Position numbers and translations under genes: made by a program
The notes under the pieces: model-generated
Told to the model about the DNA's origin: nothing
Databases searched by the model: none
Seen by the model: the letters and a program-made list of their open reading frames with translations, nothing else
Shown: positions 7,678 to 56,738 of the stretch, piece after piece
Layout of the letters: each line of letters starts with the position of its first letter
How positions within the stretch are numbered: position 1 is the stretch's first letter
Source of the DNA: Enoplolaimus lenunculus
Lineage: Eukaryota; Nematoda; Enoplea; Enoplida; Thoracostomopsidae
Length of the DNA: 64,000 nt
Reading direction: 5' to 3'
Assembly (NCBI GenBank): GCA_030248215.1
Contig: JASANG010000455.1
Location: forward strand, 55,402-119,401

Positions 7678-7893
7678 GGCCATGTATAGAACAGGCCCGG
7701 GTCGTTTTCCAGCGGGGCTGTATTATAGCGTTAGTTTAAGCTTTAGACTAACTTTTCTGCTCAGGATTAGGCTATGCTTAATATAGGCATAAGGTTAAGA
7801 ATAGGCTCATCCTTATACGCTTAGGCTTAAGTTTAGGCCTAGGCTTAGGAATATGCTTATACCACTTTTCCGGCCTTGTTCTATGCGTGGGCC
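7678..7893 (+). mobile_element. TTAGGC-family MITE, copy
   Basis: Left end ggccatgtatagaacagg and right end cttgttctatgcgtgggcc are inverted repeats. Inside are gtttaagctttagactaact, then cttagg words and aatatgcttatacc. It has no coding potential. Confidence 0.75.
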
Positions 7894-8479
7894 GGTTAGA
7901 GTATTTGTTTGAGCTTTAGCCCGACCATTTTGGAGTTGGTTTCCTAGTAAATATTTGTCTTATACTGTAGACATACTTATGTACCTTAATTTCACAAATA
8001 TTTTTCTTAATCGGTTATAAAACAAAGTCATAAGACATTTAAGTATAATAAATTTTAGACCAATATTTCTGATAAATTTAAGAAATAAAAGTCTTGAATT
8101 CGAGACATATATGTCTAGAGACTGTATCAAGACATAATTGACTTAAATTTCAGAGCAAATGCATAAAAATCTGCACGCAAATTTCTTTTCACAAAACAAT
8201 ATATTACTTCTAACAAAATATTGTAAACAAAGTAATGCTGGAACGTTGCCCAAAATACAAAATACGTATGTGAGGCGTTCCAGCTTTAAATATAAATGTA
8301 TAGTTCCTGCCGAAAGTAACATTGATCGCGATGGACGTGTATTAAAGCTCGCTGAAACTTGATTTTCAATTTTAAGAACAGATACAACTAAACTTTCAAA
8401 CAGACGCGATTTTTGGTAAATCACGGGACAGTAAATATGGTTCATATGTATATATATCTACTTAGGTAAGTGTACAGAG

Positions 8480-8550
8480 TCAAGGAATTTGAAAAATAGT
8501 ACGTAAAATGTTGTATATCTAACATTTTACCTATTTTTCAAATTCCTTGA
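8480..8550. repeat. Short perfect-stem hairpin
   Basis: tcaaggaatttgaaaaatag at 8480 is mirrored by ctatttttcaaattccttga ending at 8550, and gtaaaatgtt pairs with aacattttac. This gives a 30-bp stem with one 3-nt bulge and an 8-nt loop. It could be a collapsed inverted-repeat element or a hairpin RNA. Confidence 0.8.
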
Positions 8551-9530
8551 TTCGGTATACCCACCGAAGTATATGACACCAGCTGGTACAACCACCAACA
8601 ACGCAATGAATTTTGTTTATAAAAAAGCCTAAAGTTTAGCCGAGAATGGCTAAACGCCAAAAATAGAATGGCGTTAATCACATGGTTCTTTCTTGGTTTT
8701 TGATAAAATGCGTAATTTGTTCGTTTTCGGCCGAGGCTGACGCTGGACAAAAGCGTTAAACTAAAATATTAAGTGTCATTTTTGTGTCTTGTGACAGAAA
8801 ATCCGCACCAAAAATACCGACGCCCAATTAGTCGATATTCATATAAAGAGCCACGGTATTTTTTAAAGACGTCAAGATTGACTGGGGCGCAGGAAGTCTC
8901 AAACCATTTTGAGTTCGTGACGTACGCCGCCAATATTTTTCACGGGATTGGGCTACAAAAACCCTTGTGAATTTGGAATGAATGATTTGAATATCAAATT
9001 CGCCTCAACACAACAAAGCCGGCACGCTATCCATTCCTCATCTTCCCTGTAAACCAGCACAAGGTGAAGGTGACAACGGGAGACAGGCGGGCGCAGCGAC
9101 CGAGACACCGTATTTTCGGTATTGATTCCGTTTGTTTGGAGTGGACCATTTTGAGAGAATTGGTACTAAAATTCAAAGAGCGAAGCGAGCGAGAAAGCAA
9201 TCGATAATTTGAAATTAAAATTTTAATGCAAAAAATATTGATTTTAAAATTTAGCCAAGGGTCGCTTAAGCATGAGGGGTCCCTATTTGAGTAGCGTATG
9301 GCGGGCGCTAAGTGCGGCACTGGTTGAGCATTCAGCCATGTAACTTGGAATTGTTATGAAGGCCCATATTCTCAAAGTTTTCAAACTGTCCAACGTCTGC
9401 AGTTGCAGATCTCAAAATTGATACAAAAGTAGGGCGAAATTCGTAAGCTGAAGTAAATCCCCTATGGTCGCTTACTTCCGCGTCACTTGCGACACTGACA
9501 AAGCAATAGGCTACAATAATCTCTAGCTTG

Positions 9531-10415
9531 GGCCAATAAAGAACTGGGGCGAAACAGTATTATAAGCATATTCCTAAGCCTAAGCCTAAGCCTAAGCGTA
9601 AGCCCTAAGCCTAAGCGTAAGAATGAGCATATTCCTAAGCCTAAGCCTAAGCGTAAGCCTAAGCGTAAGAATGAGCATATTCCTAAGCCTAAGCGTAACC
9701 CTTAGCCTAAGCGTCAGAATGAGCATATTCCTAAGCCTAAGCCTAAGCGTAAGCCTAAGCGTAAGAATGAGCATATTCCTAAGCCTAAGCGTAACCCTTA
9801 GCCTAAGCGTCAGAATGAGCATATTCCTAAGCCTAAGCCTAAGCGTAAGCCTAAGCCTAAGCATAAGAATGAGCATATTCCTAAACCTAAGTCTAAGCGT
9901 AAGCCAAAGCCTAAGCCTAAAAATGAGCATATTCCTAAACCTAAGCCCAAGCCTAAGCCTAAGCCTAAAAGCGTAAGAATGAGCATATTCCTAAACCTAA
10001 GCCCAAGCCTAAGCCTAAGCCTAAAAGCGTAAGAATGAGCATATTCCTAAGCCTAAGCGTAAGAATGAGCATATTCCTAAGCCTAAGCCTAAGCCTAAGC
10101 GTAAGCCTAAGTGTAAGAATGAGCATATTCCTAAGCCTAAGCCTACGTGTAAGCCTAAGCCTAAGCGTAAGAATGAGCATATTCCTAAGCCTAAGCCTAA
10201 GCCTAAGCGTAAGAATGAGAATATTCCTAAGCCTAAGCGTAAGAATGAGCATATTCCTAAGCCTAAGAACAAAGCCTGAGCGTAAAAATGAGCATATTCC
10301 TAAGCCTAAGTTTACGCGTAAGCCTAAGTAAATTAAAAAAATTCAGTCTAAAGCGTACGCTTACACTTTTCTCGTCCCACAGAAAAACTTTACGCCCCTG
10401 ATCTGTACATGGGCC
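9531..10415 (-). mobile_element. TTAGGC-family MITE with greatly expanded internal array
   Basis: Ends are ggccaataaagaactggggc and its inverted counterpart gcccctgatctgtacatggg. The interior, about 9571-10330, is an array of cctaag and cgtaag hexamers punctuated by gaatgagcatattcctaag, giving a higher-order unit of roughly 30-50 bp. Long open frames on both strands come only from the six-base periodicity. Confidence 0.85.
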
Positions 10416-10639
10416 CTTGGTATGTTTGAAGGCTCGCCAATTTTAGGAACACCATATGTGCTGTTGTTTGACCTCATCAAATTGTTAGAATTAACGCGTT
10501 CTTACTATCCCAAACGGGTCGTTGGGAGTTTGTTCTATAAAACGGAATTGAAAATAGAATTGAAAACAAACACTTGTTTTGGTTTTGTTTGCATTTTCGG
10601 CTATATTCGCAACATTTGCTAAAATACAGCACCCACGTT

Positions 10640-10750
10640 TTACTGCTGGACCGCCATCTAAAAGCAAAAGCCTAAACGTAAGGCTTAACGGTATGCCTAA
10701 ATATAAGCCTAATCCTAAGTCCAAGTCTAATCCTAAGATTAATACAAAAA
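10640..10750 (-). repeat. Fragment of TTAGGC-type array
   Basis: Degenerate cctaa words (gcctaaacgtaag, gcctaatcctaagtccaag) without recognisable ends. Confidence 0.5.
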
Positions 10751-12367: not shown

Positions 12368-12573
12368 GGTCCATGTAAAGATCAGAGGCGGAACGTTTTT
12401 CTCTGAGACTAGAATAGAGTAAGCTTACGCTTTAGACTATTTTTTACTTGGCTTAAGATTTAAGGCTTAGGCTTAGGCTTAGCAATAAACTCAATCTAAC
12501 GCCTATAGGCTTAGGCTTAGGCTTAGAAATATGCTTGTAATACTGTTCCCCCGCCTGATCTTTACATTGTCCC
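12368..12573 (+). mobile_element. TTAGGC-family MITE, copy
   Basis: Left end ggtccatgtaaagatcagag, internal agtaagcttacgctttagac, several ttaggc units, aatatgcttgtaatactgtt, and right end gatctttacattgtcc. The ends are inverted repeats. Confidence 0.75.
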
Positions 12574-13972: not shown

Positions 13973-14613
13973 GTTTTCCAGAGAACAGACCCGGAACTAA
14001 AATAGCTGGCATTTTAAAGATATTTCACATCAGATTCAAACCATCTGCCGGAACAAAAAGCTATGAAGTATACTAAGTAATGGGAAAATCTTTAAAATCC
14101 TTCTTAACTTTAAAATACGTAAGCTGAATAATTCAGTAGCTGGTGGCCAGTTAGGCTTATTTTTCCCATGATAACCACACCGATTAGCCCCTGCTTTGAA
14201 AACCGTCTAAGCAGAATTTCATACAGGGGTATGTCTTAGGAAATATACAGCACCCCTGTTCAATATTAAGACCGAAACAGGGAAGTAATAATATATTTTC
14301 TCACGCTGCTAAATTGGACGAGTTTAGAGCCACGATAATGTCCCTGGTTTGCCTGGCAATTTCGGTTGCATCTCCTTGTATTCGCCAATTTTTTAAGCAC
14401 ATGAAACACCGTTGTTTGTCATTTTTAAGATAAATTGAAGCCTAAATCATAAATCTTTTAGCATTTGTTAAGCTTAAGTCTAAACCAAAGTCTAAGCCAA
14501 AGCCTAAGCCTAAGCCTAATCCTAAGCCTAAGCCTAAGTCTACATCGCTCAGTGTCACTGCCTTATATTGGAGAGATCTTTGGCCGAGTTTGTGACTGAA
14601 AGCTGTGAAGTGA

Positions 14614-15988: not shown

Positions 15989-16185
15989 GGCCCATGTGTA
16001 GAACAGGGCCGGAAAGTTTTCCGGAGGGGCTGCAACAGAGCCAGTTTAAGCTTTATACTAAAAATTTTTTGCTTAGGCTTAGGCTCTTAGAAATAGGCTT
16101 ATCCTGACGCTTGGCTTAGGTTTATTCTTTAGGCTTAGGAATATGCTTATACTACTGTTCCGGCGCTGTTCCATACATCTGGGCC
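15989..16185 (+). mobile_element. TTAGGC-family MITE, copy
   Basis: Left ggcccatgtgtagaacaggg, right ctgttccatacatctgggcc, with the usual gtttaagctttatact block and cttagg words inside. Confidence 0.75.
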
Positions 16186-16680: not shown

Positions 16681-17267
16681 AGAGTCCATAGAGCCTAAGC
16701 CTAAACTTATGCCTAAGCTTAAGCCAAAGCCAAGCAAAAATAATTAGTCTAAAACTTAAGCTTGCTCTCTATTACAGTGTTGCCGGAAAACGTTCCACCA
16801 CTGTTATGGGCCGAGTTTTTTATAACACGAAGTATACAATAGAATTAATATATACATATTTCTTATTGCGAAAGCACTTAAAATAAGTGGATTTATTTGA
16901 TAATACTTTATATTTAATTAATGATGCCTCAAATATGCACAGTGGCTGAGCCAGGATTTCATATCTGTGGGTATAACCGATTGAAACTTTGATGCGAGCG
17001 ACAGGTGACAATTTTTCGCTTAAGCAAAAAAATATTTAGAAGCTTTTCCTAAAGCCTAAAATGCATATTTCTTGTCTCGACGTAAATTATTGCCGACCAC
17101 ACAAACCTTTATACCGATTGTTGAACAAAACAACTCAACCGGTGTTTGCCGAGTCAAATCGAGTTCAATTAATGTTTTTTATGAATGAATCAAATTAAAC
17201 GATGCGTGAAGGTTTTAGGGCTCAAATTTTGGGTTATTAAGCTAATTACGTCATAATAAATAATACG

Positions 17268-17833: not shown

Positions 17834-19041
17834 TGCCGACACCAGGATCAGCCTGGATACGTCTTTGCCGGTGGGAAGATTCTCATTTGTAATGTCTCCT
17901 AAATCCGTCTTTGTTAGAAACGGAATGAAAAAAATATAAAATCTTAGATTTTTTCGAACTTTAATGATTTTAAATTAATACGTTCACCAGTGTTTTAGCC
18001 AGATCCTTAAGATTTTAATCCAATGGAGAGGCCCCTAAAAACTTTGGCCCTTGTAGAAAAGTATAAGATTTCTTGGTACGAAATTCCCGGACACTCCGGT
18101 TGATTTTTTTGGACCTGTACAGCACGACAGGCTGGTTTGCGTTCAGTGCCGTCTTGAATTGCTACTGGATCACCCGTTCGGTTTGTAAACAAAGGATTAA
18201 AAGATCAATGTAAATAAACTTTTAACTCATTTTTTTAATATTCAAATTTGTTCGAGTCATATTTCGTTCTGTTTAACTAAACTAGAATACATCAACTACA
18301 TTGAGGATCGGCGACATGTCTTCTGCTACAGGAACCACTGCACACAGTGCGTTATAGCACTGCTGTTATAACCATATGAACCGTAGTACAACTATTAGCT
18401 ATTTTAGTATCGTACGCCTGTCTGCTTAAGTTTCATTCATATATTGACAGCATTCAGTATCTATTTTTGCAACCGTTTATTAATGAAGTTTACAATCTCA
18501 ACCACCCGTCAGCTACAAATATTTTCAGGTTTCATTCATAAAAAATTGAAATATCAGCTGAAACTCTACTCATATTTATAATTGAACGCTCGACTGTGCA
18601 TTTTGCGTTTTGTACTTTCGCTTAGTCAGTCGAAACGATGAACAGCGAAACCTTACAGAGGTTCAGTTGAAACGATACTCAATTTACGTATGGTAGGCGT
18701 TCTAGCTGATTACAGCATTTATGACATACACTGTAAATTCCAGTGAGTTGATTTTAACTCAGAAACAGTTGAATCACTCAGTCTGAGTTAGAGTAGATTT
18801 ATATTCTTGATTACATTTTTTATTTAGGCTTAGGCTTAGGCCTAGGCCTAAGCTTAGTCTTAGGTACTTGTTACTGTATTTTTTGGAAGATTTGAACTAA
18901 ATTTCGAATCATGCATATTTGACCAAGTTCTTAACCATATCAGTCTATAAATATTACAAATGCCACTGATTGCTTGTTGTGATCGCAGAGTTTAGACCTA
19001 AATTATGTAGAATCTAATGACAATTTTGTAATACTTACAGA

Positions 19042-20234: not shown

Positions 20235-20490
20235 AGGGATAAGCTAAGTTTTAGAGTTGTCTTAGGTTTAGGCTAAGTTTCAGAGTTGTCTTAGACTTTA
20301 GGCTAAGGTTTAGAGTTGTCTTTAGGTTCAGGCTAAGTTTCAGAGTTGTATTAGGTTTAGGCTAAGTTTTAGAGTTGTCTTTGGTTCAGGCTAAGTTTCA
20401 GAGTTGTCTTAGGTTTAGGCTAAGTTTTAGAGTTGTCTTAGGTTCAGGCTAAGTTTCTGAGTTTTCTTAGGTTTAGGCTAAGTTTCAGGT
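20235..20490 (+). repeat. 29-30 bp minisatellite related to the TTAGGC family
   Basis: About eight tandem units built on ggctaagtttcagagttgtc followed by ttaggtttag-type words. It is flanked at 20120-20230 by degenerate cttagg sequence, so it probably grew from one such element. Confidence 0.85.
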
Positions 20491-21320: not shown

Positions 21321-21895
21321 GGACCCATGTAAAGATCAGGGACGGAGAGTTTTTTGTATGGACTGCAATATAGTAAGCTTAAAGGTTTAGACTAATTTTT
21401 TGGCTTGGCATGGGCTTAGGAATACGCTTATTCTTACGCTTCAGTTTAGGCTTAGGCTTAGGCTTAGGAATATGCTCATTCTTACGCTTAAGTTTAGGCT
21501 TAGGCTTAGGCTTAGGAATATGCTCATTCTTACGCTTAAGTTTAGGCTTAGGCTTAGGTTTAGGAATATGCTCATTCTTACGCTTAAGTTTAGGCTTAGG
21601 ATTAGGTTTAGGAATATGCTCATTCTTACGCTTAAGTTTAGGCATAGGCTTAGGTTTAGGAATATGCTTATTCTTACGCTTAAGTTTTATCTTAGGCTTA
21701 GGCTTAGGAATACGCTTATTCTTACGCTTCAGTTTAGGCTTAGGCTTAGGCTCAGGAATATGCTCATTCTTACGCTTAGGCTTATGCTTAGGCTTAGGTT
21801 TAGGAATATGCTCATTCTTACGCTTTGGTTTAGGCTTAGGCTGAGGCTTACGAATATGACTATAATACTGTTCCGCCCCTGTTTTTACATTGGCC
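21321..21895 (+). mobile_element. TTAGGC-family MITE with expanded internal array
   Basis: Left ggacccatgtaaagatcagg, right cgcccctgtttttacattgg. Internal repeats at 21400-21850 of gcttaggaatatgctcattc plus ttacgcttaagtttaggc give a unit of about 60 bp. The apparent long open frames on both strands follow from this periodicity. Confidence 0.85.
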
Positions 21896-22764: not shown

Positions 22765-22925
22765 GGCCCAAGTAAAGATCACGGGCGGAACGTTTTTTGT
22801 TGGCTTAATGTAAGCTTATACTTTAGGCTAATTTTTTTGTTTATGTTTTGGCTTAGTCCTACGCTTAGGCTTCAGTTTGGCAATATACGTATACTACTGT
22901 CCTGGCCCTGTTCTAAATATTGGCC
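22765..22925 (+). mobile_element. TTAGGC-family MITE, short copy
   Basis: Left ggcccaagtaaagatcacgg, right ggccctgttctaaatattgg, with little internal array. Confidence 0.7.
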
Positions 22926-24916: not shown

Positions 24917-25152
24917 GGCCAATGTAAAGAACAGAGACGGAACTGTATTATAAGCATATTTCTAAGCCTAAGCCTAAGTCTAAACGTAAGAATGAGCATA
25001 TTCCTAAACTTAAGCCTAAGACTAAAGCTAAGCCTAAGCCTATGCCTAAGCCTAAGCCAAGCAAAAAAATAAAAAAAATTAGTCTAAAGCTTAAGCTTAC
25101 TCTTTTCTAGTCCCACAGAAAAACGTTTCGCCCGTGATCTTTACATGGGCCC
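24917..25152 (-). mobile_element. TTAGGC-family MITE, copy
   Basis: ggccaatgtaaagaacagag at the left; acagaaaaacgtttcgcccg then tgatctttacatgggccc at the right; cctaag array and gtctaaagcttaagcttact inside. Confidence 0.8.
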
Positions 25153-25319: not shown

Positions 25320-25525
25320 AACCTAAAGGCGGAACGTTTTTCTGTGAGACCGCAATAGAGTAAACTTAAGCTTCTTAGGCTCAAGTTTAGGCTTAGGCTT
25401 AGGTTTAGGCTCAAGTTTAGGCTTAGGCTTGGGTTTAAGCTCATTCTTACGCTTAATGTTAAGCTCAGATTTAATAGCAATATGCTTATACTACTGTTAC
25501 AGCCCTGTTCTATACATTGGTCACC
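25320..25525 (+). mobile_element. TTAGGC-family MITE, copy with decayed left end
   Basis: aggcggaacgtttttctgtg, then array words, aatatgcttatactactgtt and ccctgttctatacattgg. Confidence 0.7.
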
Positions 25526-25821: not shown

Positions 25822-26010
25822 AGGATCTTTAAGGTTCTTCAGGATCTTTAAGGTTCTTCAGGATCTTTAAGGTTCTTCAGGATCTTTAAGGTTCTTCAGG
25901 ATCTTTAAGGTTCTTCAGGATCTTTAAGGTTCTTCAGGATCTTTAAGGTTCTTCAGTATCTTTAAGGTTCTTCAGGATCTTTAAGGTTGTTCAGGATCTT
26001 TAAGGTTATT
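25822..26010 (+). repeat. 19-bp minisatellite
   Basis: About ten tandem copies of aggatctttaaggttcttc, nearly identical; the last few diverge. Confidence 0.95.
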
Positions 26011-26035
26011 CTAAATCAGTTGGTAGTGTTTTTGT

Positions 26036-29076: not shown

Positions 29077-29271
29077 GCGCCCATGTAAATATCAGCGGCG
29101 GAACGTTTTTCTGCGGGACTGCAATAGAGCAAGCTTAAACTTTCGGTTATTTTTCGCTTAGGTTTAGCCTAAAAGTTTAGGCTTAGAACTCATTCTTTAG
29201 GCTTTGGCTTCGGCTTAGGATTAGGAATATGCTTATACTACTGTTACGGCCCTGGTTTTATGCATTGATCC
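29077..29271 (+). mobile_element. TTAGGC-family MITE, copy
   Basis: Left cgcccatgtaaatatcagcg, right ggccctggttttatgcattg. The interior is shortened. Confidence 0.7.
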
Positions 29272-32818: not shown

Positions 32819-35800
32819 ATGCCAAGTAAAAAACGACCGAGTTACGATGAAAATTTTGCCACTCGGACTTTGCCTGCTGACGAACTAAAAATGGCAGTAC
32901 TGGGTTACGTCCGTGTCGGAAAGACAGCGATTGTCAATCAATATCTACACAAGTAAACGTTGTTGACTATTGTGCGGGCCCATGTAAAAATCAGGGGCGG
33001 AACGTTTTTCTGTGGGACGAGAAAAGAGTAAGCTTAAGCTTTAGACTAATTTTTTTGCTTGGCTTAGGCTTAGGCTCAGGCTTAGGAATACCCTCATTCT
33101 GACGCTTAGGCTTAGTCTTAGGTTTAAGCTTAGGCTAAGGTTTAAGCTTAGGCTTAGGTTTATGCTTAGGCTAAGGTTTAAGCTTAGGCTAAGGTTTAAG
33201 CTTAGGCTTAGGTTTATGCTTAGGCTAAGGTTTAAGCTTAGGCTAAGGTTTAAGCTTAGGCTTAGGTTTAAGCTTAGACTAAGGTTTAAGCTTAAGCTTA
33301 GGTTTAAGCTTAGACTTAGGAATATGCTCATAATACTGTTCCGCCCGGGTTCTATACATTGGCCATTGTATGTATATTCCTGGGTTTAATGGTTGCGCTA
33401 TACTTTTCTGTGTCGCGTGCCGTCGACCAACGCTACCACACGATTGATATAAATTTTAATATGAATCATAGCGGCGTCCATCTCCGGGATGCAAACACAC
33501 CGCTACCCTAAGTTGGCTTAAAACGCGACTTCCATAAATCACGCTCACTAGCCAATACTGAACTCAATGAGCTCCAGTGAGCAACCTACTACAAGCGTGT
33601 GAGAGCATCTTCGGACTCGAGCGTCAACTGGTTGATAGTCAAGCTATTACAGTAAACGTTTTTCGCAAAACTTAATGATTAGGTAAAAATAGCTGAAAAT
33701 TCCCTTCAGCCATTTTTTGGCAAGTTTTCTAAAAAACAGTAATTCGGTGATGAAAATTATTTCAAATTCCCGTTCGTGTTCGTGTTCCGGTTCCGGCACA
33801 AAAATTCAATTTCGGTTTCTGTTCCTGATTAGGTAAAAATAGCTGAAAATTCCCTTCAGCCATTTTTTGGCAAGTTTTCTAAAAACAGTAATTCGGTGAT
33901 GAAAATTATTTCAAATTCCCGTTCGTGTTCGTGTTCCGGTTCCTGCACAAAAATTCAATTTCGGTTTCTGTTCCTCTTCCGGCAAAATTTAGTTCCTGAT
34001 GCAAGCCTGGTGCCATATACAGATGAAATAGAAAATATTCATGTGAGAAACGATTAACGACTGAATCAATGTTGTCCAACGCTTTTTTAGAACATTTCTC
34101 GCGCACTACAAACCGACCGTTGAAGATTTCAGTTGGGTTGAATACGAGTCCGATGACGGCCGGACGGTTGTTGTCAAAATTGTTGACCATTCGGGAAGCA
34201 ATGAATTTGCTGCAATGCGAGATTTATGCGTCAATACTGCATCTGCATTTTTGCTCGTCTGTTCATTGGACAGCAAAGAATCGGTGCACGAAGTTGAACG
34301 TTTAACGCAAGCGATTCGTGCGAATAATACAAAGGTAAATTTTGGCCCATGTCAACTATAGGGGCTTGCTTGCTGGGAGACAGGCTGACTGGGAGACAGG
34401 GAGACTGGTAGACTTCGAGACTCAAAAGGGTAGGCTGAGGATTGAGATGTATAGTTTGTGTTTAGGCTGAGGCTTAGGTTTTGGCTTAGAATTAAGCTTA
34501 AATTTAGACTCACCCTAGGTAGGCAGCGACTTATGGCTTAAATTTGCTGCAATTTTAACCTTTTATGAAACGAAAGTGTTTATCTTAGTATACAGAGTGG
34601 ATGTCGTGTCCTAAACAAGTATTTGTTTCGCTTGTAACCAGAATGTAAACCAATATTAATAATAACGGAACCGGACACTGATTTTCAGCGGATACGGAAC
34701 CGGATATTCGGTTGCTAGTGTTGTGCACCGGCAACGTCCCGGCCGGCCGGCCAGTAATTGCTTATCACAGAAAAAGATAAAAAATTGTGACATATAACTT
34801 AATTTATTATTTTTAATCATATTTAGATTTCGATTCTAAAACTTTTAGTTGAAATCTGAAATGTTGTTTACTGTTAGCACTACGGTCAATATTAAAATTT
34901 AATCACTAGTTGAAACTACTTTGGTTGCAGTTGTATTCTAGACAACTCGTGGTCGAATATAGCGCTTCAGATGATCTGCGTTCGATTGCCGTTTAGAGAA
35001 ATACAATGAAATCTTTCATTGTGGAGTTTATGCAAATATTTTTGACAATAATAACGGGAATAATAATGTAAACGGATTCAATCAACCAAAATTTTCTCAC
35101 TGATCAATAAATCTTTTGAAAAGCAAAAGCTTTTATAGCTATATGAAGAAATAGAAAAATCTGAAATAGATATAGCAATCATTTAAAACTAAAGATGTCT
35201 ATAGTAGCATGGATACATGTGAAATTCCGGTTTGATTAATAGGAAACCATTTGTATAGCATATTTTTAGCACCGTAGGTCTGCTGAACCGATAGGAAACA
35301 CAACTCTACTTACCCTGCATCAATCTCTGAGGAACCGCCGTAGCTTTAGTAAAGTGCCGTTGAATTTATAACCTGTGAACCTGTGTTTTCCTGGTCTTTC
35401 CAGAAGTTTACGCATGTATCCAACTATTCTTCCTACTGGCGGATCCAGTACGACGAACCAAAATTTTGTATTTAATGGTTTAGCACTGAAATGGCATTTG
35501 GGGTTGTGGCTCGCTTCGCTTGCGAGTGCTTCCACTACTTCTCGTGAGGTCCCTCAGTTTAGAGTTTCTTTGATACGCCACTTCCTCAGTAAACAAACCT
35601 TCGCGACGACGGGAGCGTGTGAAAAACTAATTTCTCGCCGTTTCTGCGATGTTTGTGTCGCTGGTTTGCGAGAAAGTGCATATTGGCAGCCTTGACTTTA
35701 AGCTTATGCTTCCTGATACGGGTGTTGCAAATGATGCAACCACGTTGACTAAGTATTTTTCAAAGTTGTGTGCCTTTTTTCAGCAACCAAGCATAGCGTT

Positions 35801-36801: not shown

Positions 36802-37043
36802 GGGAACATGTAAAGATCAGGGGCGGAACGTGGTTCTGTGGGACTGCAATAGAGTAAGCTTAAGCTTTACACCAATTTTTTTGCTTCGCTTAGGGATAGT
36901 CTTTTGCTTAGGTTTAGGAATACTACGCTTAGACTTAGGCTTAGGCTTGGGAATATGCTCATTCTTACGTTTAGGCTTAGGCTTAGGCTTAGGCTTAGAA
37001 ATATGCTTATAACACTGTTCCGCCCCTGTTGGTTACATTGGCC
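36802..37043 (+). mobile_element. TTAGGC-family MITE, copy
   Basis: Left gggaacatgtaaagatcagg, right ccgcccctgttggttacatt then ggcc. Inside are cttaagctttacacc and about nine ttaggc-like units. Confidence 0.8.
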
Positions 37044-38149: not shown

Positions 38150-38310
38150 AGGCTTTCGGCTCAATGATGCGGCTGCTGCCAAACCTTAGCCTAAGCCTAA
38201 ACAACCGTAATAGCAAGCCTAGTCTAATCAAAAAATAGTGTGTAAAGCTCAAAGCTTACACTGTTGCAGTCCCGCGGGAAAACGTTCTGTACCTGACCTT
38301 TACAAGGATC
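38150..38310 (-). mobile_element. Partial TTAGGC-family MITE
   Basis: ccttagcctaagcctaaac, then gtgtgtaaagctcaaagctt, cccgcgggaaaacgttctgt and acctgacctttacaagg. The right end is preserved; the left is missing. Confidence 0.6.
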
Positions 38311-38316
38311 TCGTCA

Positions 38317-38527
38317 TTGTAAGCCTAAGCCTGAGCCTAAGCCTAAGCCTAAGAATAAGCCTAACCCTAACCCTAAGCCTAAGCCTAAGCCTAAGCCTAA
38401 CCTAAGCCTAAGCCTAAGCCTAAGCCTAAGCCTAAGCTTAAGCCTAAGCCTAAGCCTAAGCCTAAGCCTAAGCCTAAGCCTAAGCCTAAGCCTAAGCCTG
38501 AGCCTACGCCTAAGCCTAAGCCTAAAG
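38317..38527 (-). repeat. Near-pure (TTAGGC)n interstitial array
   Basis: About 34 tandem cctaag hexamers (TTAGGC on the minus strand) with only scattered variants such as cctaaccctaaccc. It lacks the gaatgagcatatt spacers that break up the arrays inside most elements. Confidence 0.95.
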
Positions 38528-38920: not shown

Positions 38921-39123
38921 GGGACCATGTAAAGACCAGGGGCGAAACGTTTTTCTGTTGGACTGCAATAGAATAAGCTTAAGCTTTAGATTAATTTTTT
39001 GGCTTTGCTTACGCTTAGGCTTAGGCTTAGGAATAGGCTCACTCTTACGCTTAGGCTTAGGCTTAGGCTTAGGCTTAGGAATATGTGTATAATACTGTTC
39101 CACCCTTGTTCTTTACATTGGCC
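38921..39123 (+). mobile_element. TTAGGC-family MITE, copy
   Basis: Left gggaccatgtaaagaccagg, right cccttgttctttacattggc. Confidence 0.8.
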
Positions 39124-39154
39124 GGTTAATGTATAGAACAAGAACACAGCAGTA

Positions 39155-39355
39155 GTAGAAGCATAAAGAACAGGAACGGAACGGTAGTGGAAGCATATTC
39201 CTAAGTCTAAGCGAAACCAAAGCCTGAGCGAAGAATGAATTTATACCTAAGCCGAAGTCAAAACCCATGCCTAAGCAAAAACAAGTCTTAGCTTAAGAAG
39301 TTACACTACGGCAGTCAGGCAGAAAAACGTTCCGCCCTTGATCTTTACATAGAAC
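39155..39355 (-). mobile_element. TTAGGC-family MITE, copy
   Basis: Left ataaagaacaggaacggaac, right acgttccgcccttgatcttt. It abuts the previous copy almost directly. Confidence 0.7.
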
Positions 39356-39711: not shown

Positions 39712-40004
39712 GGACCATGTATAGAACAAGGCCGGAACAGTAGTATAAGCATGTTCCTAAGCGTAAGCCTAAGCCTAAGCGTATAGATGAGCATATTCCT
39801 AAGCCTAAGCCTAAGCGTATAGATGAACCTATTCCTAAGCCTAAGCCTAAGCGTATAGATGAACCTATTCCTAAGCCTAAGCCTAAGCGTATAGATGAGC
39901 CTATTCCTAAGCCTAAGCCTAAACAAAAAATTAGTCTAAAGCTTAAACTGACTCGATTATAGCCCCTCTGGAAAACGACCCGGCCCTGTTCTATACATGG
40001 GCCC
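39712..40004 (-). mobile_element. TTAGGC-family MITE upstream of the VWD gene
   Basis: Left ggaccatgtatagaacaagg, right cggccctgttctatacatgg. The interior has four or five ctattcctaagcctaagcc-plus-taagcgtatagatga units. It ends 55 bp before the start codon. Confidence 0.8.
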
Positions 40005-40058: not shown

Positions 40059-43000
40059 ATGAAACGTCGAAAACTGTGGACGAAAGTTAATATTTCAAAC
40101 ATTTTGCTGATCGGTCCAGTTGTGCTCCTGGTGTTTTGTGAAGCGCAAAGTAAAAAACAGTTTATGTGTTTGGATGAAACTGAATAATTTTTCAAATCAG
40201 AATGAAAGAAATTTAAGCTTTCAAAGAAATAAAATTCAACGTTGAATATACAAACATTTCCATACGTTCGAGTACAACGTTGAATAAATCAGAAAATTGT
40301 AGGTGATACATACATATCTGACCCGATGTATAGAACAGGGTTGGAACAGTAGTATAAACATATTGCTAAGCCTTAGCCTAACCCTAAACCTAAGGGTAAG
40401 GATGAGCCTATACATAAGCCTAAGCCTAAGCAAAAAATTTAGTCTAAAGCTTAAGATTACTCTACTACAGTACAGTAGGAAAACGTTCCGGCCCTGTCCC
40501 ATACATAGGTACATATATGTGTAGATATAACACCGAAAATCCATTTTATTAATATTATAAATGAAATCAAAAGTTAATGACACGGGTTCAAACTCGACTT
40601 CAAATATCCAGCATTGATCTGTAGTCCTTTTTTCAATCAAATCCACGGCCAATGTAAAGAACATGGGCGGAACAGTATTATAAGCATATTCCTAAGCCTA
40701 AGCCTAAGCCTAAGCCGAAACCTAAGCGTAGGAATGAATATATTCCTAAGCTCGAGCCTAAGCCTAAGCCGAAACCTAAGTGTAGGAATGAATATATTCA
40801 TAAGCCTAAGCCTAAGCCTAAGCCTTGTCAAGCAAAAAATTAGTTTAAAGCTTTATGCTTAATACTCTATTCCAATCCCACAGAAAAACTTGCCGCCCCT
40901 GATCTTTCGAATAGCGACTTTGAACGTCAGTATTTCAAATTGTATTTGTCGTAGTTCGGCGCCAAATTTTGAGATCCGCAATTGCAGAAATTCGTCCGTT
41001 TGACCAACCTATCGCTAAACAAGAAATAACTGATGTATGCATTTGAGAATATTTGCCCTGTATACCGAAACCTGTTTTATCAGTTTTTAACTAACTTTTT
41101 ACAATTTCAGAAAATGCCCAACAAATTTGCGAACAAAACGATCAGCCGTGCATTGGCGTACGAAATCCGTGTATAAACGGCGGCCGATGTTGCCGTAAAG
41201 CGTCAATGGCAATGGATTTGACCGGAACCGTCAAAAATACCACCGGATATGAAGAAATTTGCGATTGCTCAACCAATCAATTTTACCGAGGGCGATATTG
41301 TCACGGTAAAAGTTGACGTTTAGTTTAATATTAGGTTTGGGTTTAGCATTTGGGATCTGTTATATAAACGTGCTAATAGTTGTTTGAATGCAACTTCAAT
41401 AAGATGTAACGACATGTATTCTTTAACAACTTAAACTTAAATTACAGCTTAACTAAACATGAGCATTAATTTGAGTAAAACTTATAAATGGCTGGACGGA
41501 CTAACCAAACTAGAATTGTAAGTTGAACATTTAGACGAACATATTTTTAAGTTAAACACAAGTTTAAGTAAAACTTATTTTTGGTTTAAGTAACGATTGA
41601 AGCCCAAAGATTAGGTGTATCTGAGAATTCATTAAGTTTTACCTACCACCAGATAACATTGAAACAAACAATTGAAAATGTTACACGCGAGGATTACGTA
41701 GAAATGTCGCACGTATACTTTGCCAAGCTTATGGGCGTAAGCCTATCCTGGCCAACGTGTACAAGAGACGATATTTAACCTGTTTACGGAAGTTACTGGT
41801 GTAATCGTTGTTATCGTTTTGTTCCCACCCAAAATTTTTTGATTTTCGTCTTCTGAAATATGGTTTGATATTTGAAATCTAGTCAAATTACGACCCATGT
41901 ATAGAACAGGGCTGGAAGGCTTTCCTGCATGGCTATAATAGTGTCTGGTTAAGAATTTAAGACTAACTTTTGTGCTTAGGCTTACGCTTACGCTGTAAAT
42001 TCCAACGACTTGATTAATCAACTCAGATAGAGAATTAGCTATTTCGACGTGTTTCTAAGTTAATAACAGTAAATATTAACTCACTCTGAGCTGATTTAAC
42101 TTCGGGTGAGTTGATTCATTAATTAACAATGAGTTCATTCAATTCGGAATTATGCGATCTGAAAAACCTTATTCAGAGCTCAGATTTCTGAGTGCATTCA
42201 ACTCATTTTGAGTTAAAATGAATTTACTGGACATTACAGTGAAGGAATAGGCTCATTTTTACGCTTACATTTAGGCTTAAGCTTAGGCTTAGGCTTAGAA
42301 ATAGGCTTATACCACTGTTCGGGTCCTATTCTGTACATGAGTCGGAGTGGCTGTATTAAAATTGAAAATCAAACAAATGTTAAATATTATTTTAGAGCGA
42401 AATCCGTGCTTCCCAAATCCATGCAACGAAACTGCGTCATGTATTGCGAATCATACTTCATATCGATGTTATACTCAAAGTAAACAGCACAAATATATGT
42501 ATGTTTGTATGTATATATATATATGTCAGGGTGCAACCGGATACTCAAAAACTGCCTGATCCAGAGCCAGAGCTAATGAGAAATTAATATTGTTGAATCA
42601 AGTGAAATGCCTGCTGAAAAAATTTCCCTATGAATCTATGGATTTTCATAGTTACGCAATATTTATTAGCTGGATATTCTGACAGTACACAAAAAAACCA
42701 CGAAAACAACATTTTGAAATGCTTTATTATGAAAATGTTATTTTCGTCGGTGATATGACCGAAAGTTGGCCGATCCCGAGACGTTTCGTTAGTTTCATTT
42801 CGACATCGAATTAGAATCGATGCTTGCATTCTCAACTATGGACAACATTTATTGCCAGTTTGTGGGCAATGCATATTTCTGGACCGTAACAGTAGTATAA
42901 GCATATTCATAAAAGTATTCCTAAAAGCCTAAACCTAAGTCAAAGCATAAAGACAAGCCTATACAGCCAAAGGCAAAAACTTAGTCTAAAGTTTAAATAC

Positions 43001-46000
43001 TATTAGCAGTCCCGTGGAAAAACCATCTGTCCCTGAACATCAACTCACCCTGAGTTGAGTTGACTCTGGGTGAGTTGATTAATTAACTCAAAATGAATTG
43101 AATCAACTTAAAATTGTGAGTTTTGATAGTCCCAACTCAGACTGAGTAATTCAACTCGCTCTGAGTTAAAATTAATTCATTGAAATTTACAGTGCATATG
43201 TGCCTCAATTAGTAGCAAATGCTCTGCCGGTAGACATCGCAATAGTATTTGAACCCTTGGTTTCTGAGATACATGACCATGTAACTTTAAACGGTCAACC
43301 GGTGTTATTCTCAAAGCGAATTGTTGTGTCGTTGAGCAAAATACGAAATTCAACAAAATTAAGCTGAATGCAATATATGATATGTCCCGCTAACCAAGAA
43401 ATCCAAACACACTCAGTATCAGTGAGACGAAACAAAACAACAACAGTAGATGTCCTGTTTGTTGAAAACTGCAGCGACCACAATTTATGCTGATGTCTCA
43501 ATACGCTAGCTACCTATGCAAATTGTTTCACACAATGTGACATATGTGTTTATTTCAGAATCCGGTATAACACTGTAAATTCCAATGAGTTGAATAATTA
43601 TCTCGGAGTGCGGGAGAGCTATTTCTGATTGAAAAATGAACAAATAACTTTGAGTTGCGTTGACTCCGGTTGAGTCGATTAATTATAACGCAGAACAAGT
43701 TGAATCAACTCTTAGAATTGTGATTTCTAACAGTCGTAAGTCAGATTAAGTTGATTCAATTTATTCTGAGCTAAAAACAACTTAATACTCCAATCAGGGC
43801 CGTAGCCGGCTCACCTTGCTAGGTGGGCTAAATGTTCTCCATGAGGGGCATTCAAGGGTATTTAATGACTTACAAGCAAGGTTAAAAATTTTCCAGTGGG
43901 GTGGGCAGCCCTGCCCCCTTGGCTACGGGCCCGACTGGAATTAACAGTGAGGTGCTAGTAGGACTAATGCTAAGGTTAAATAGTAACTGTTTATACGATT
44001 TAAATGTTGTTTAAGGTTTGAACGGCCGATGTTACAACGATCCCCATTGTCGGTCTTTTGATGGAAAATACTTTAACTTTCATTCAACTTGTGACACAAT
44101 AATGACAAAAACGTGTGTCAGTTCCGGTTGGCCCGACGATTTGCCAGTGTTTCAGGTCGTCGCTCATTTCCGGCCTTGTCGCGGATCAAAGCACGCGCCG
44201 CCTTCGTGTATTGACGGCGTTAGCTTTGATGTTGCCGGCAGCGTGTTAACGCTGCATAGAAATATGAGTTTAATGGTAAAGTTTACGTGTAGGCCTGGGC
44301 CCATATTCTCAAATGCGTGTAGCATCTATCGTCAGTTAGTAATAAGCCTTCAAACTAACTGCTGCATTTGCAGGTCTCAAAATTTACACACAAGTAGAAT
44401 ATATCGAATGCCATAAATGTGCTGAATTTCAAATTTCACCATTCCCTGATTCGAAAGTGAGAAAACCTATCACCAACGGGTAACAGGTGCTACAAACATT
44501 TGAGTTTGAGAAGAGTTGATGGTATATATTGCACACGTTCTTTTTTACACAGAATGCACCCAGTTGCATATAAACCCTGATCGAAAAAGTTTCATTCGCA
44601 CACAATAGCGATTCCAAACGGAAGGATACCCCGGTCTAAACCGCCTCAAGACGAATCAAAACCAGGATATTGTAGTAAGATGTATAGCACTAAAATAATG
44701 TCCGGCTTTTACCTCACTTCGCTTGCGCGTTTTTTCTCCCGTTGATATTTCGCCTCACCCCCCTGAAAATTTCTATATCCGTCACTGTTCCACTCTCGCT
44801 AACACTTTTGATTTTTGTCTGGCAGGTCGACAACGAACCCACGGCGCTACCGTACCACTTAGACGATCAACCCGCAACAGGCGACGACTCAACCGCAACA
44901 ACCACCACCGCAACTCCGTTCATCATCGTTCAAGCGAGTCCGTTGAGTCCAACTGATACGCTGGCAATTTCAACCAATTGGGGATTGTCAGTTTCGTTGA
45001 GTCCGAACGAAATTCGCCTCGACGCAAGTCCTGAGTTAAGCCAAGCGATCCGTGGCAAAATTTGTGGTCTCATGGGCAACGGTGACGGAGTGGAAGCGAA
45101 CGATGAACCAAATTCGATTGATGTTACTATGTTACCGTTTACGCCTGACGGGTAAAGTATACGCCATGTTACACTTAGGCTAGGCTAAGGCTAAAACCTA
45201 AACGTGTTTGCCTAACTTTTTGCCTAAACCTGAGATTAACCCCTTCTCACATTAAGTTGCCTGTTGGCAACTCAGCGCAGTGTATATACGTTAAATAGTA
45301 TATATCGCACCGTGTTTAACAATTGCAACACGTATACATAGTACTAAATCAGCACAAGACGTGAGAGCCCCCTCGGGCTCGAGCGTCAAGCTCCTATAGC
45401 TGAGTGGTGATGGTATACGCCTCCCACTCCAGTCACTGGAGTTCCAATCCTAGCATAAAAGTAGCCTTAGGGAAAATAGAAAATATTCATGTGAGAAAGG
45501 GTTAAGCCTACGCCTGAGCCTTAATCTGAAATTTTGATGAGAAGTGTAGAATATCTTTGGCCCATAATGTAACAAGTTTCACACGACTGTCATGTATTTA
45601 GAGTGACCCCCGTGACCATTATAAGACGGAGGGGGATAGATTTTTCAAAATCCGTCACACCCCCTTAAAATTCTATTACCCAGCAAGGAACTAATTTCAG
45701 GCGTTACCTACAGACGGTCGAAAGGCTGTGCCCAAACCAGAACCGGATGTGCAAAACCGGATATCGAAAGAATAAATTCTAGAAACAAACAAAAACATCT
45801 CTCAACAAATAAAAAGTGACACGTTTACGCCCCGGTCCTTAGAAAAGCTACGACTTTTCAAGGTCAAAAATCAACTCCGGTCTGACCACGTTTATGACGT
45901 AGCAGGAGTCGTGTTTGGAGTCTTGGAGAACGGCCACGTAAATTACTAAAGTATATACACTGCAAAAAATGGTGAGTTAATGACTCCAGTAGAGTCTTTG

Positions 46001-52645: not shown

Positions 52646-52805
52646 GTACGTATATGAAGAAATATTCTTTATAAGATTTTTTGATGAAGCTCATCGAATG
52701 CTCTAAAATTTACAACCTTGCTAGTAGTTATAGCCCTGGGGCTGTAACTACTCTTGCTTTTTTATTGACAGAAAGCAAACTGAAACAACGCTAAATTGAC
52801 TTATA

Positions 52806-55136
52806 ATGACTCGGCATGGAAAAAATGCAACTGCTAATTCGGTGTACAGCTATCACGAGCGAATTAAGGATGCAAAATTATCAGGTAACGTTACTGTTAA
52901 ATATACTGTTTTAACTGGTAGCTTCCGCTCGATTTAGCTTTGTTATATTGATGGTTGATTAGCCCAATTTTGTTGATTTTCGTCGCGGGTTTGAATTAAA
53001 ATTCAAAGGTTGTTTGGTTAAAGGCTTGAAATTCTAAAACTTTAACCAAAAGTATCAAGTTCTATAACGCGCATATACAAAAATATAATGCGTGTTATGC
53101 ATGTAAATAAAGATATGACGTAAAATTTTGTAATAACCCTGGGCTATCACGAGCTTATTTTGAAAATGACCTCGATATAGCCATGGGCAATAGGAGATTT
53201 TGTGGCAACGTTGACAAAAGTATTGTGAATGTTGCATTATACTGCAGATCATTCACTGAGATTATATCCATTATTAAACAGGTTGGGGAACTCTACGCGA
53301 GCGTCTTGGGAAGGACTCTATCAAAGATTTCGATTGCTGTTCATTAACACTGCAACCATGTAAAGATCCTGTTGTTACGCGCGATGGACATATTTTCGAC
53401 AAGCTTGCAATTCTTGAATACATCGTTCACCAGAAGAAGCAAAACGCGCGAAAGCTGAAAGAATGGGAACGACAGCAAGTGGTATATTTCTATGACGGCT
53501 ATAAAGTTTATAATGGTTATAGATAACCATATTGTCTAATGGATACTTTAGAAAACTTAATTGTAATTTTGAACTTACTGTGTAATATGTTTTTAAGAAG
53601 ACGACGTCAGCGTCAGCGTCTTGTACATTGTAACGTTCGTTCTGATGCCAAATTGCCTGTAAATAAATCAATTATTCAGAACTGGGTTATTTAAGGAAGA
53701 AGCGACCGACAAACAAAAAAGTGAAACTGAATTGCGGATGGAAAAATTGCAAAAATTTATTAATCACGAAGCTACACCAACAGTGAGTCGAAACTATGAT
53801 GCAGATGAGGACGATACACCAACCGATTTAGACCAACGTGAGTACAACAGGCAGCGTTAGAAATTCAAAGTCTGATAACATGCTCCAAATTTCTATTTCT
53901 GTTATTTAACTTAAGTTACAAATAGTGGATGTATAAACGTTAATTCCGGTTTTCGTAACTCTGCAATGAAATGACCTAATAGCTGAAACTATTGCGATGT
54001 TGCAGCTAGTGTGTCAAATATGGCCGGTAAGAAACGTAAAACAATGCCGAGCTTTTGGACGCCTGATCAGGTACCTGCTGCAAAAGCAAGCAAACTTGTT
54101 TCGAAGCCAGATCAGAAGGTACTTGTTGGGACAATAATATGTTTACAAACATTTTTGAAATATTTTTCAGAAAAGACATTACTTTAAAAGTGACTTCGTA
54201 CTAACAGCTTTACGATAATTTTCACTTGTAAAGTATGACGTTGCATATCGTTATTTCGCACAACGGAATTTTAGATCGCATAACATGGCCTACAGGCGTG
54301 CGAAACAACCTAATTGACCACACCTTGTGCGTTGTGAATATTTCTCATTCGATGCATGACATTTAGGTGTATTGCCCAATATCTGGTAAGCCATTGAAAG
54401 TGAAAGATTTGATTCCTGTAAAGTTTACGCCGATGCCTACGGATGATACGCGTTCTGATGTGGCTAAGCAGGTTTGTTTACTGAAAGTTGGTAGTAACTT
54501 CTTTAAGACTTTTGGTCTTACTGAGTATTCGTTTCCAGAAGGGAATATCATTCCACAAAGTCCCATGTTAACCCCTTCAGTCGAAAATTCCCCCTGGTTT
54601 TAAATCACATTGTATATTTGGCCCATGTTACTTTAAGGGGCGTCCAGGTTTCTTGTGGGTCTATAGCGCAGTAGGTTTAGATTCTAGATTAATTTTTTGC
54701 TTAGGCTTACGCTTAGGCTTAGGAACACATTTTTGCAACGCTGAGGTTTAGGCTTAGGCGTATATTTTATGTAATTTGCTCAAATTTTGTCTCGGTTTAT
54801 CCTGACAAATTGCTTAATCTACAGTTACGGCCCTGAAAGTAACATTGGCCATGAATCATACTATATAGTTTACTTTAGGTACGATATATGTGCGCAATTT
54901 CAAGTGATGCATTAACAAACTCAGTGCGTGCAGCGGTGTTGCGGACTTCGGGAACAGTAGTTACACTGGAAGCTGTTGACAAAATTATCAAACGAGATTG
55001 GATAGATCCGGCTAATGGCAAACCTTTGACAGAAAACGATATTATTGAATTAGTTCGCGGTGGAACTGGTTACGCTGTCACTAACCAGAATAAGCTTGAG
55101 TCAAAGGCTGCAGGTCCAACTGCGGCGTGCGCTTAA
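52806..55136 (+). CDS. NOSIP: NOSIP homologue (nitric oxide synthase-interacting protein, U-box type), 6 exons
   Basis: NOSIP is a conserved, mostly nuclear protein with a split U-box/RING-like fold, reported as an E3 ubiquitin ligase and spliceosome-associated factor; in mammals it also binds NO synthases. Exons 52806-52884, 53282-53478, 53696-53837, 54006-54118, 54367-54471 and 54879-55136 give 297 aa (human 301), with all phases matching. Conserved landmarks are MTRHGKN at the start, KDFDCCSLTLQPCKDPVV at 41-58, ILEYIVHQKK, MPSFWTPDQVPAAKASKL, YCPISGKPLKVKDLIPVKFTP (second U-box half), MCAISSDALTN, AVLRTSGTVVTLEAVDKII and RGGTGYA near the C-terminus. A coiled, charged linker separates the two halves. 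Intron 5 carries a TTAGGC-type inverted-repeat element (54620-54850). AATAAA overlaps the stop codon, implying a very short 3' UTR. Confidence 0.97.
54620..54850 (+). mobile_element. TTAGGC-family MITE, GTTACTTT subfamily, in NOSIP intron 5
   Basis: Left ggcccatgttactttaaggg, right cctgaaagtaacattggcc; ttaggc words inside. It ends 28 bp before NOSIP exon 6. Confidence 0.85.
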
Positions 55137-55141
55137 ATAAA
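55136..55141 (+). terminator. Polyadenylation signal of NOSIP, overlapping the stop codon
   Basis: AATAAA begins on the last base of the TAA stop. This hexamer is the canonical metazoan poly(A) signal. Use at this site is inferred. Confidence 0.6.
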
Positions 55142-55859
55142 GCTTTGGTTTCTGTTTTTTGAGCGGATAGTAATATTGTGTCCTACAAATGCTAGATTTA
55201 GGGCTTTAAATATAGATTAAACATATTAAGCCTGAGCTTAAGCAATAAAAAGTGTAAACGTAAGCATAAATGAACCGCACGTTGCATTATTAGAAACTGG
55301 CAAAAGCGCTACCTTTGATGGAACTAGACCTTCAGATGCAGTTTGGAATTAATCAATCGGCCACGTTAATAGTATGAAGTTCCACCCACCGTGCGACTGG
55401 AAAGTTCAGGTTTTAGGCATAAGCTGGTGGAAAGCCACAGATTAATTAGCTAAACTACAGATTTCGGAAACCAGTGCACAAATATTCGCCTGAATTTTTC
55501 AAATTTGAAGGAAAATACTACATGCATTTGATATTTTGTGGACTTCCGATGAGAGCATGAAAAATAACGGAATTTCGGTATTTCTATATCAGAACCGTAT
55601 AGGGATTTTGGCCAATGTTACTTTTAGGGCCGTAACAGTAGATTAAGCGTATTCCTAAGCCTAAGACTAGTGTTGTACAATTACCACTTTTTCTACTGGC
55701 CGGGCAGCCAACGCAACATGGACAGGCCGGCCGGTCATTGGCCGCCAGCCGGCTAATATACAAAGTTTAAAATTAGGCGTTTTAAATGGTGTCAGGGTGC
55801 AACCGGCATTGTGGTTCCTGCATTCTTTCACCTTTCGGTTCCGGTAAATTGTTCCTAAA

Positions 55860-56190
55860 TGCTAATTAGAGTCCATAAGTGTCAACAATCCATAACTGCT
55901 GTGCATGAACGACTGCAAGACCAAATAAAGTTGAGCTCGAAACTTTAAAACATACTTAATATTTGAAAGTATTTTCCTATTAAGTATACTTTGCGTCGTC
56001 GCCTATTAATCTTTTGACACAAATCAAATGAACATTTAATTCAACGGATAGGTGCAATACCGGACATATATTATCGACAAGCGTCGTAGGCCGGCTTAAA
56101 AATAAATAACAGTCCGTATAACAGAATAACAGGAGTTATCTTCTGGAGATGCCAAATAAATATCAGACCCCTCTGATTCGGGTCATTATG
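55860..56190 (+). mobile_element. TACTGTA..CCGAATAAG element, 5'-truncated
   Basis: ctaattagagtccataagtg, ccaaataaagttgagctcga, then acccctctgattcgggtcat at the right. Confidence 0.65.
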
Positions 56191-56588
56191 GTGTAAAAAG
56201 TTTGATAATCGCCGAAAATAAACCATCGAAGGTAGATTTCGCATCCGTCGATAAAGGAAATCTAAAACACAGATGGTACTGCTTAACTTAGACTATCTTC
56301 AACTAAATATTTCACCGATAATACAGCTAAAAATAAAATAAGAATGAATTTTTCGGTGGCATATATGTTTCAGTTTTCGGTCCCAGTCATTTTTCGAAAT
56401 TCCGTTTCGGGCATTTTTTGACTTTCCGGCTTCAATAAATTTTTACCGGAATTAAAAAATCCGGTATTGAATTTTGATAGGTGGATTTTCGTAAAAATCA
56501 CGATTTAAAGATTAAATAGATTTCTTTCGCGCAATTGTCCGAACTAAAACAAAAATGACGATATTCTTTTCTAATCTTACAGAATTAC

Positions 56589-56738
56589 GGCCCATGTAAA
56601 GATCAGGGGCGGAACGCTTTTCTGCGGGACTAGAAAAGCGTTAAGCTTAAGCTTTAGACTATTTTTTCTTGACTTAGGCTTATTAAGATGCCCATTCTTA
56701 CGCTTAGGCTTAGACTTAGGCACAGGTATATGCTTACT
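56589..56738 (+). mobile_element. TTAGGC-family MITE, right end missing
   Basis: ggcccatgtaaagatcaggg, gcggaacgcttttctgcggg, then a short array cut off near 56738. Confidence 0.7.

Follow-up and report, generated by a model that had tools for sequence, protein, structure and literature searches.

A miniature inverted-repeat transposable element with a core of TTAGGC, the unit of most nematode telomeres

Why should TTAGGC, the unit of most nematode telomeres (PMC9071541), recur again and again in the interior of a contig? The question is raised by the terminal 64 kb of contig C808 (119,401 bases), called the window in what follows, from a genome of 296 Mb in 3,185 contigs. An earlier note on the window had described a family of miniature inverted-repeat transposable elements (MITEs) with TTAGGC hexamers in their interior. 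This observation is confirmed here, and the interpretation attached to it, that such elements seed telomere-like tracts throughout the genome, is supported. The family is a non-autonomous DNA transposon, a MITE, and the evidence that it seeds interstitial telomere-type tracts is that 16 of 20 sampled arrays lie between its ends.

Copies in the window and anatomy of the element

The ends of the MITE were located in two ways, by a search with the pattern of its terminal inverted repeat (TIR), GGCC(C/A)ATGTAAAGA, and by profile hidden Markov models (HMMs), the hits of which were then chained into copies. TIRs are present where the earlier note had placed them, the pattern search and the HMMs being in agreement, and after chaining there are 18 two-ended copies, along with 6 single-end hits. 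Of the latter, that at 39164-39201 falls within a two-ended copy, so that 5 separate one-ended copies remain; the earlier note had put the copies or fragments with shared TIRs at around 20 or more. The two-ended copies occupy 8.2% of the window bases, and in the reversed window the first HMM pair gives no MITE-end hits. Copies of two further subfamilies, B (GGCCCATGTATAGAACAGGGCCG) and C (GGCCCATGTTACTTTTAGGGCCG), likewise have TTAGGC cores. The copies, and the TTAGGC arrays that lie outside them, are as follows in window coordinates.

2040..2173 (-): MITE fragment, flanked by exon matches of NF45
7677..7893 (+): two-ended MITE copy, subfamily B; 3 TTAGGC
9530..10415 (-): two-ended MITE copy; holds the window's longest array (9573-10328, 756 bp; 41 TTAGGC)
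12368..12572 (+): two-ended MITE copy; flank match 6/8
14469..14542 (no strand): TTAGGC-type array lacking MITE ends
15989..16178 (+): two-ended MITE copy, subfamily B
16696..16812 (-): MITE fragment, only left end
18824..18864 (no strand): short TTAGGC-type array without MITE ends
21322..21895 (+): two-ended MITE copy, 48-bp units; 19 TTAGGC
22765..22925 (+): two-ended MITE copy, array nearly nil; target duplication CTATTTTT/GTATTTTT (7/8)
24917..25151 (-): two-ended MITE copy; target duplication CAAACATT/CAAACATC (7/8)
25328..25522 (+): two-ended MITE copy without outer left TIR
29078..29269 (+): two-ended MITE copy
32977..33364 (+): two-ended MITE copy, 18/54-bp units; 11 TTAGGC
36803..37043 (+): two-ended MITE copy; 6 TTAGGC
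38217..38310 (-): MITE, only left end
38322..38525 (no strand): stand-alone (GCCTAA)n array, 92% matches, outside the adjoining MITE end
38922..39123 (+): two-ended MITE copy; 8-bp target duplication GGTTAATG, perfect
39124..39355 (-): two-ended MITE copy, abuts copy 38922..39123
39712..40003 (-): two-ended MITE copy, subfamily B, 36-bp units; 10 TTAGGC
40321..40511 (-): two-ended MITE copy, subfamily B; target duplication CATATCTG/CATATATG (7/8)
40647..40916 (-): two-ended MITE copy, 54-bp units; 8 TTAGGC
41892..42341 (+): two-ended MITE copy, subfamily B, other DNA within
42867..43036 (-): decayed two-ended MITE copy
54620..54850 (+): one-ended MITE copy, subfamily C (TIR GGCCCATGTTACTTTAAGGGGCG); 4 TTAGGC
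56589..56740 (+): MITE copy, left TIR perfect, without right TIR; 3 TTAGGC

Subfamily C, which is more diverged, has a second end in the window at 55610.

Read as TTAGGC or GCCTAA, the hexamer occurs 226 times in the window, to be compared with a mean of 32 and a maximum of 40 in 20 first-order Markov simulations. Pure chance is therefore rejected as the source of hexamers and ends, the reversed patterns giving no hits. The two-ended copies contain 137 of the 226 hexamers, and 12 of the 19 perfect runs of at least three units lie within them. An interior of TTAGGC is thus borne out, except that the longest array, earlier put at about 760 bp within 9531-10415, is not pure: its size is right (756 bp), but its 41 exact hexamers are arranged in units of 48-54 bp with a spacer. 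Scanning the window against Rfam and for tRNAs gave nothing.

A consensus built from 22, and later from 55, copies begins with the left end GGCCCATGTAAAGATCAGGGGCGGAAAGTTTTTCTGTGGGACTAGAATAGAGTAAGCTTAAGCTTTAGACTAATT, continues with a core in which TTAGGC hexamers are combined with the spacer GGAATATGCTCATTCTTACGC, and closes with the right end GGAATATGCTTATAATACTGTTCCGCCCCTGTTCTTTACATTGGCC. Its TIRs, GGCCCATGTAAAGATCAGGGGCGGAA and GGCCAATGTAAAGAACAGGGGCGGAA, have GGCC ends and a length of 26 bp, with 24 of the 26 bases identical. Elsewhere in the genome, 70 loci (L009-L038 and L046-L085) were picked for a well-preserved left end, which biases the sample toward younger copies. The right end is missing at 9 of them, and the other 61 are two-ended copies with a median length of 201 bp, a range of 128 to 1,010 bp and 0 to 16 TTAGGC each. 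A few of the long pairs may unite the ends of separate copies; the longest, L024, is 1,010 bp in the pairing script, which joined it to a farther end, and 182 bp with an exact duplication otherwise. TTAGGC is absent from four of the 61 copies, and ten others have a single one.

The orientation of TTAGGC is fixed relative to the element, as seen in 57 of the 61 copies, with 236 hexamers in one direction and 8 reversed; the latter are spread over 4 copies, 5 of them in L017. Hexamers that are not adjacent are spaced by a multiple of 6 in 57 of 65 cases in the window and in 76 of 96 elsewhere, and the spacer, with at most 4 substitutions, is found in 46 of the 61 copies. The core mixes TTAGGC with TTACGC and the spacer, and the spacer resembles the right end of the MITE. 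Growth of the core seems to occur both by whole hexamers and by larger units that combine TTAGGAATATGCTCATTCTTACGC with hexamers, in keeping with the periods of 36, 48 and 54 bp.

Transposition and the transposase

Genome-wide, 5,407 left ends are found within 3 mismatches of a 28-mer, and the reversed pattern gives none. Target-site duplications, a check proposed in the earlier note, are present: the 8-bp flanks match at 7-8 positions in 28 of the 61 two-ended copies, compared with 1.06% for shuffled partners. Among exact repeats that abut the ends, 14 are of 8 bp and none is of 9 bp, and the other lengths from 4 to 12 bp contribute one case in total, a 5-mer. In the target consensus, A is commonest at position 2 (14/28) and T at position 7 (19/28). 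The window itself weighs on the other side, since its flanks match at 7-8 of 8 positions in only 4 of 22 delimited copies (one perfect, three 7/8) and worse in the remaining 18.

When 39 joined flanks were searched against 350 kb for empty sites, L012 alone matched other loci across the junction, the hit of L076 being L076 itself. L012 is an insertion nested in another copy, and its junction is spanned by ungapped matches in L056, L088 and L103. Consistent termini, 8-bp target duplications and the nested insertion of L012 together show a real MITE. The element is short, has TIRs and no room for a transposase, makes duplications of fixed length and exists in high copy number, as MITEs do. At L009, L027, L038 and L052, four copies sit at one site of a larger repeat, with flanks 82-94% identical, which means that some copies have multiplied as passengers.

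Which transposase, then, moves the element? Merlin transposons have terminal 5'-GG-3', TIRs of 24-462 bp and target duplications of 8 or 9 bp, and they occur in nematodes (PMC8101967). The MITE agrees with Merlin in its GG ends, in the length of its TIR (26 bp, near the short limit) and in its 8-bp duplications, and is set apart by having neither a transposase nor a partner with the same TIR. The genome has 15 matches to the Merlin transposase domain PF12762, the best at 3.5e-20, while matches occur in 1 of 14 control genomes. The DNA around all 15 was read, for C1695, at a contig start, on one side only. Five of the loci (L110, L111, L115, L120 and L121) are Merlin elements whose TIRs, about 295-417 bp long, start GGC(G/A)AAGG or GGTGAAGG. 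Their target duplications are exact over 8 bp in L110, L115 and L120, 7/8 in L111 and ambiguous in L121, and the four clear ones have A at position 2, like the targets of the MITE.

Several observations weigh against a link to Merlin. None of the 15 matches is bracketed by MITE ends, so that the autonomous relative with matching ends, which the earlier note had proposed to look for, does not appear among them. The Merlin TIRs (GGCGAAGG..., GGTGAAGG...) match that of the MITE in the first bases only, and T at position 7 of the target, as in the MITE, is found only in L111 among the four Merlin duplications. The MITE TIR is joined to a different inner sequence at only 18 sites, in a search that sees about one quarter of such sites, and of the two that were read one is an ordinary copy (L125) and in the other the MITE ends enclose some other DNA, about 1 kb long (L126). 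The inner DNA of L126 has TTTCCCGCCAAAA-type repeats.

One Merlin locus, L112/L113, was considered as the autonomous partner and rejected. Its inverted repeats are of TTCCG type, and since the two contigs match far beyond the transposase gene, the TTAGGC-type hexamers that lie about 1 kb upstream of the transposase are no proof of kinship. The contigs are 98.5% identical over 5.4 kb and more around the transposase and are perhaps two haplotypes of one place.

The MITE could instead belong to another superfamily with 8-bp duplications, such as hAT or P. This is doubtful but deserves to be kept in mind, because none of the 15 matches to Merlin, the superfamily that the transposase search covered, shares the MITE TIR. 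hAT transposons prefer targets of the form nTnnnnAn. The target consensus of the MITE, with A commonest at the second position and T at the seventh, is the reverse of this preference; the TIRs of the MITE start with GG, and the same genome has Merlin elements with GG ends and 8-bp duplications. We infer that Merlin is the likeliest family to move the element in trans: it works like a Merlin MITE and is a candidate member of the superfamily.

The telomere unit and its arrays

Whether the core resembles telomeric DNA by accident depends on the telomere unit of the host. Exons of NF45/ILF2 at 801-5765 of the window (minus strand), with the MITE fragment 2040-2173 between exon matches, were used as a marker of the host phylum. 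In a tree of ten peptides from these exons (the start of exon 2 is missing) and 30 of 922 hits, the host falls into a set of ten rows, supported at 100/100, that also holds two nematodes, Romanomermis and Plectus, and seven other rows, and 21 rows stand apart. Judged from this gene, the host is a nematode. A Telomerase_RBD match (1.3e-18) lies at C1120:20514-20876 in an open frame of 729 aa, with a match in none of the 14 control genomes; (TTAGGG)4 is found nowhere in the genome, and a pattern search for 18S gave no hits. Contig C379 begins with 12 other bases; the array that follows is about 470 bp long and has the telomeric orientation, and the junction is unique in the genome (at most 3 mismatches). 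Such an array may represent a telomere or simply a break in the assembly. TTAGGC is likely to be the telomere unit of the host, and from the nematode host, the telomerase domain and the absence of (TTAGGG)4 it follows that the telomere resemblance of the core is probably not incidental.

To see what an incidental resemblance would mean, suppose that the core is an ordinary hexamer minisatellite which arose inside the MITE and matches the telomere unit by coincidence. The mixture of TTAGGC with TTACGC and a spacer like the right end of the MITE indicates that units can come from the element itself, which speaks for this possibility. It is nevertheless unlikely, since the core unit is identical to that of most nematode telomeres (PMC9071541) and the host appears to be a nematode with a telomerase gene, since by our reckoning few among all possible hexamer units would give such a match by chance, and since TTAGGC is present in copies of all three subfamilies.

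How much of the TTAGGC in the genome is carried by the MITE? The perfect pattern (TTAGGC)4 has 12,534 overlapping hits genome-wide (0 for the backward pattern), and a form anchored at the array start has 1,557. The anchored form omits arrays preceded by a hexamer that begins with T, including TTACGC of the MITE itself, and is therefore biased against MITEs. Every fifth among the first 100 anchored places listed (contigs C1-C27) was judged from HMM hits, and 16 of these 20 arrays of at least four perfect units sit between paired MITE ends, with one weak end in L099 and in L102, to be compared with a background share of the MITE of 8.2% in the window and 2.5% in 103 kb of other DNA. Further places on C1 (L002 and L003/L004) lie within copies, as do the long arrays on C2 (78 units) and C81 (65 units).

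The remaining arrays tell against the MITE as the general source. Four of the 20 (L087, L091, L093 and L094) lie outside HMM-paired ends: in L094 subfamily C ends are recognized on reading, L087 adjoins a TIR remnant, and L091 and L093 are stand-alone. The C1 array L005 is without MITE ends. Five long arrays were read among the matches listed (at least 24 units, contigs up to C379, the C5 array left out), and three of them, on C47 (L041), on C86 (L044) and at the start of C379, have no MITE ends. L044 (C86:269359-269946) is perfect over 98 units. Strict tracts, taken as (TTAGGC)7 with at most 3 mismatches, number three in the window, and only that at 9825-9866 is inside a MITE; the one at 14490-14543 has no MITE ends, and the one at 38323-38525 lies just beyond a MITE left end and not inside. 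Because three of the five long arrays and two of the three cleanest window tracts are outside MITEs, the share of the MITE declines with array length and purity. The earlier claims, that the MITE carries the telomere-like arrays of the window and seeds tracts genome-wide, stand for most of the perfect runs of the window and most of the sampled arrays, and fall short for long clean tracts, which are often outside.

Telomerase or break repair might have put TTAGGC independently in many places, MITEs included, in which case the association with the MITE would be secondary. The stand-alone arrays (L005, L091, L093, C47, C86 and, in the window, 14469, 18824 and 38322) could have such an origin, and vertebrate breaks do receive insertions of telomere repeats (PMC8537989). 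As an account of the cores it is highly improbable, given that 57 of 61 copies have TTAGGC in one fixed orientation within the element and that 46 of 61 share the spacer.

MITEs with microsatellite cores are known from Lepidoptera, with (GTCY)n, and from Xenopus, with miDNA4 (PMC9659126, PMC12628747); tandem-repeat MITEs have been described in Donax (cited in PMC12628747) and a minisatellite MITE in Porphyromonas (PMC4596501). The present MITE has in common with these that it is a short TIR element with a variable tandem core that spreads by transposition. It differs in that its core is the telomere unit of the phylum and in that it holds 16 of the 20 sampled internal (TTAGGC)4+ arrays. No MITE with a telomere-unit core was found in the open-access literature searched by titles and abstract openings.

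In C. elegans, 1,229 degenerate interstitial telomere tracts (PMC9071541) and TALT templates (PMC4595603) have been reported. Both genomes have internal TTAGGC tracts that are chiefly short and degenerate, but here, unlike in the C. elegans accounts, most sampled short tracts lie within a transposon, which provides a cause for their spread. The excerpts consulted name no transposon origin for the C. elegans tracts, and C. elegans DNA was not searched. TALT-like template pairs, with TTAGGC tracts 100-2000 bp apart, number zero in the window. Vertebrate interstitial telomeric sequences (ITSs) inserted at double-strand breaks (PMC8537989, PMC2246262) resemble the stand-alone arrays of the present genome; for the vertebrate TERC-ITSs, the authors conclude against a spread by transposons (PMC8537989), whereas here a transposon bears TTAGGC cores. 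The abundance of interstitial telomere tracts has been called a mystery (PMC9071541), and transposition has been proposed as a possible source (PMC6410037, PMC8621592). With a transposon that holds 16 of 20 sampled short tracts, their origin becomes testable by comparison of strains and sister species.

Probable array growth, proposed history and possible function

The array of a copy may change after the copy has inserted, as the earlier note proposed, and this is illustrated by L040, the copy on C81. Its 65 units are perfect, with 0 mismatches, its element ends have 13 mismatches in 119 aligned bases, and it has the target duplication AGAACAGG, 8/8 (read by eye, the script boundary being a few bases off). 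At the rate of mismatch in the ends, about 43 changes would be expected in the array, where none is seen. The array of L040 probably grew after insertion; it is younger than its insertion, or else it has been homogenized. Among the 61 copies, the longest run shows no correlation with end divergence (rho -0.16, p 0.20). Growth after insertion is supported by L040 and by the spread of core sizes.

The history that would best account for the element and its ends, target duplications, abundance, fixed core and in-register structure, and for one array seemingly younger than its element, is then the following. An ancestor of the MITE subfamilies would have taken up several repeats of TTAGGC, the telomere unit, into its core, presumably from a telomere. 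A transposase, probably of Merlin type, would move the MITE in trans, and every transposition would bring the core to a new site, as copy number, target duplications and fixed orientation suggest. The core may then grow or shrink by slippage or unequal exchange, in steps of 6 bp or of a 24-bp spacer plus hexamers, and the outcome would be thousands of short interstitial telomere-type tracts. Taken as a whole, this explanation, with a Merlin-type MITE, a captured telomere unit, its spread and later array change, is one in which we have good confidence.

It is conceivable that the TTAGGC core has been retained because it is useful to the element, by binding telomere proteins or as subterminal sites for the transposase. 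Copies of all three subfamilies retain the core, and DTN-1/2 of C. elegans bind (TTAGGC)15 (PMC7819708). Four of the 61 two-ended copies, however, have no TTAGGC and ten have one, and since these copies have still inserted, the core is unnecessary for insertion; moreover, DTN-1/2 bind 1-3 repeats weakly, and chromosome ends are expected to be favored over interstitial tracts (PMC7819708). A use to the element is thus improbable. For the host, longer cores bound by its telomere proteins might act as dispersed telomere seeds, from which telomeres could be lengthened by recombination or broken chromosomes healed. This we put forward only as a long shot; if it were true, the transposon would have a hand in determining the places at which breaks and fusions of chromosomes can be capped.

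The window has four other minisatellites, at 20243-20488, 25822-26011, 31352-31721 and 49332-50020, with units of 29, 19, 46 and about 70 bp, respectively; the 29-bp unit includes TTAGG. A protein search with a GTPase-like exon gave no match at E 0.001. On the plus strand, 44015-49278 contains exons that encode a von Willebrand type D domain and, slightly below the curated cut-off, a TIL-like stretch; they are perhaps those of one secreted protein gene.

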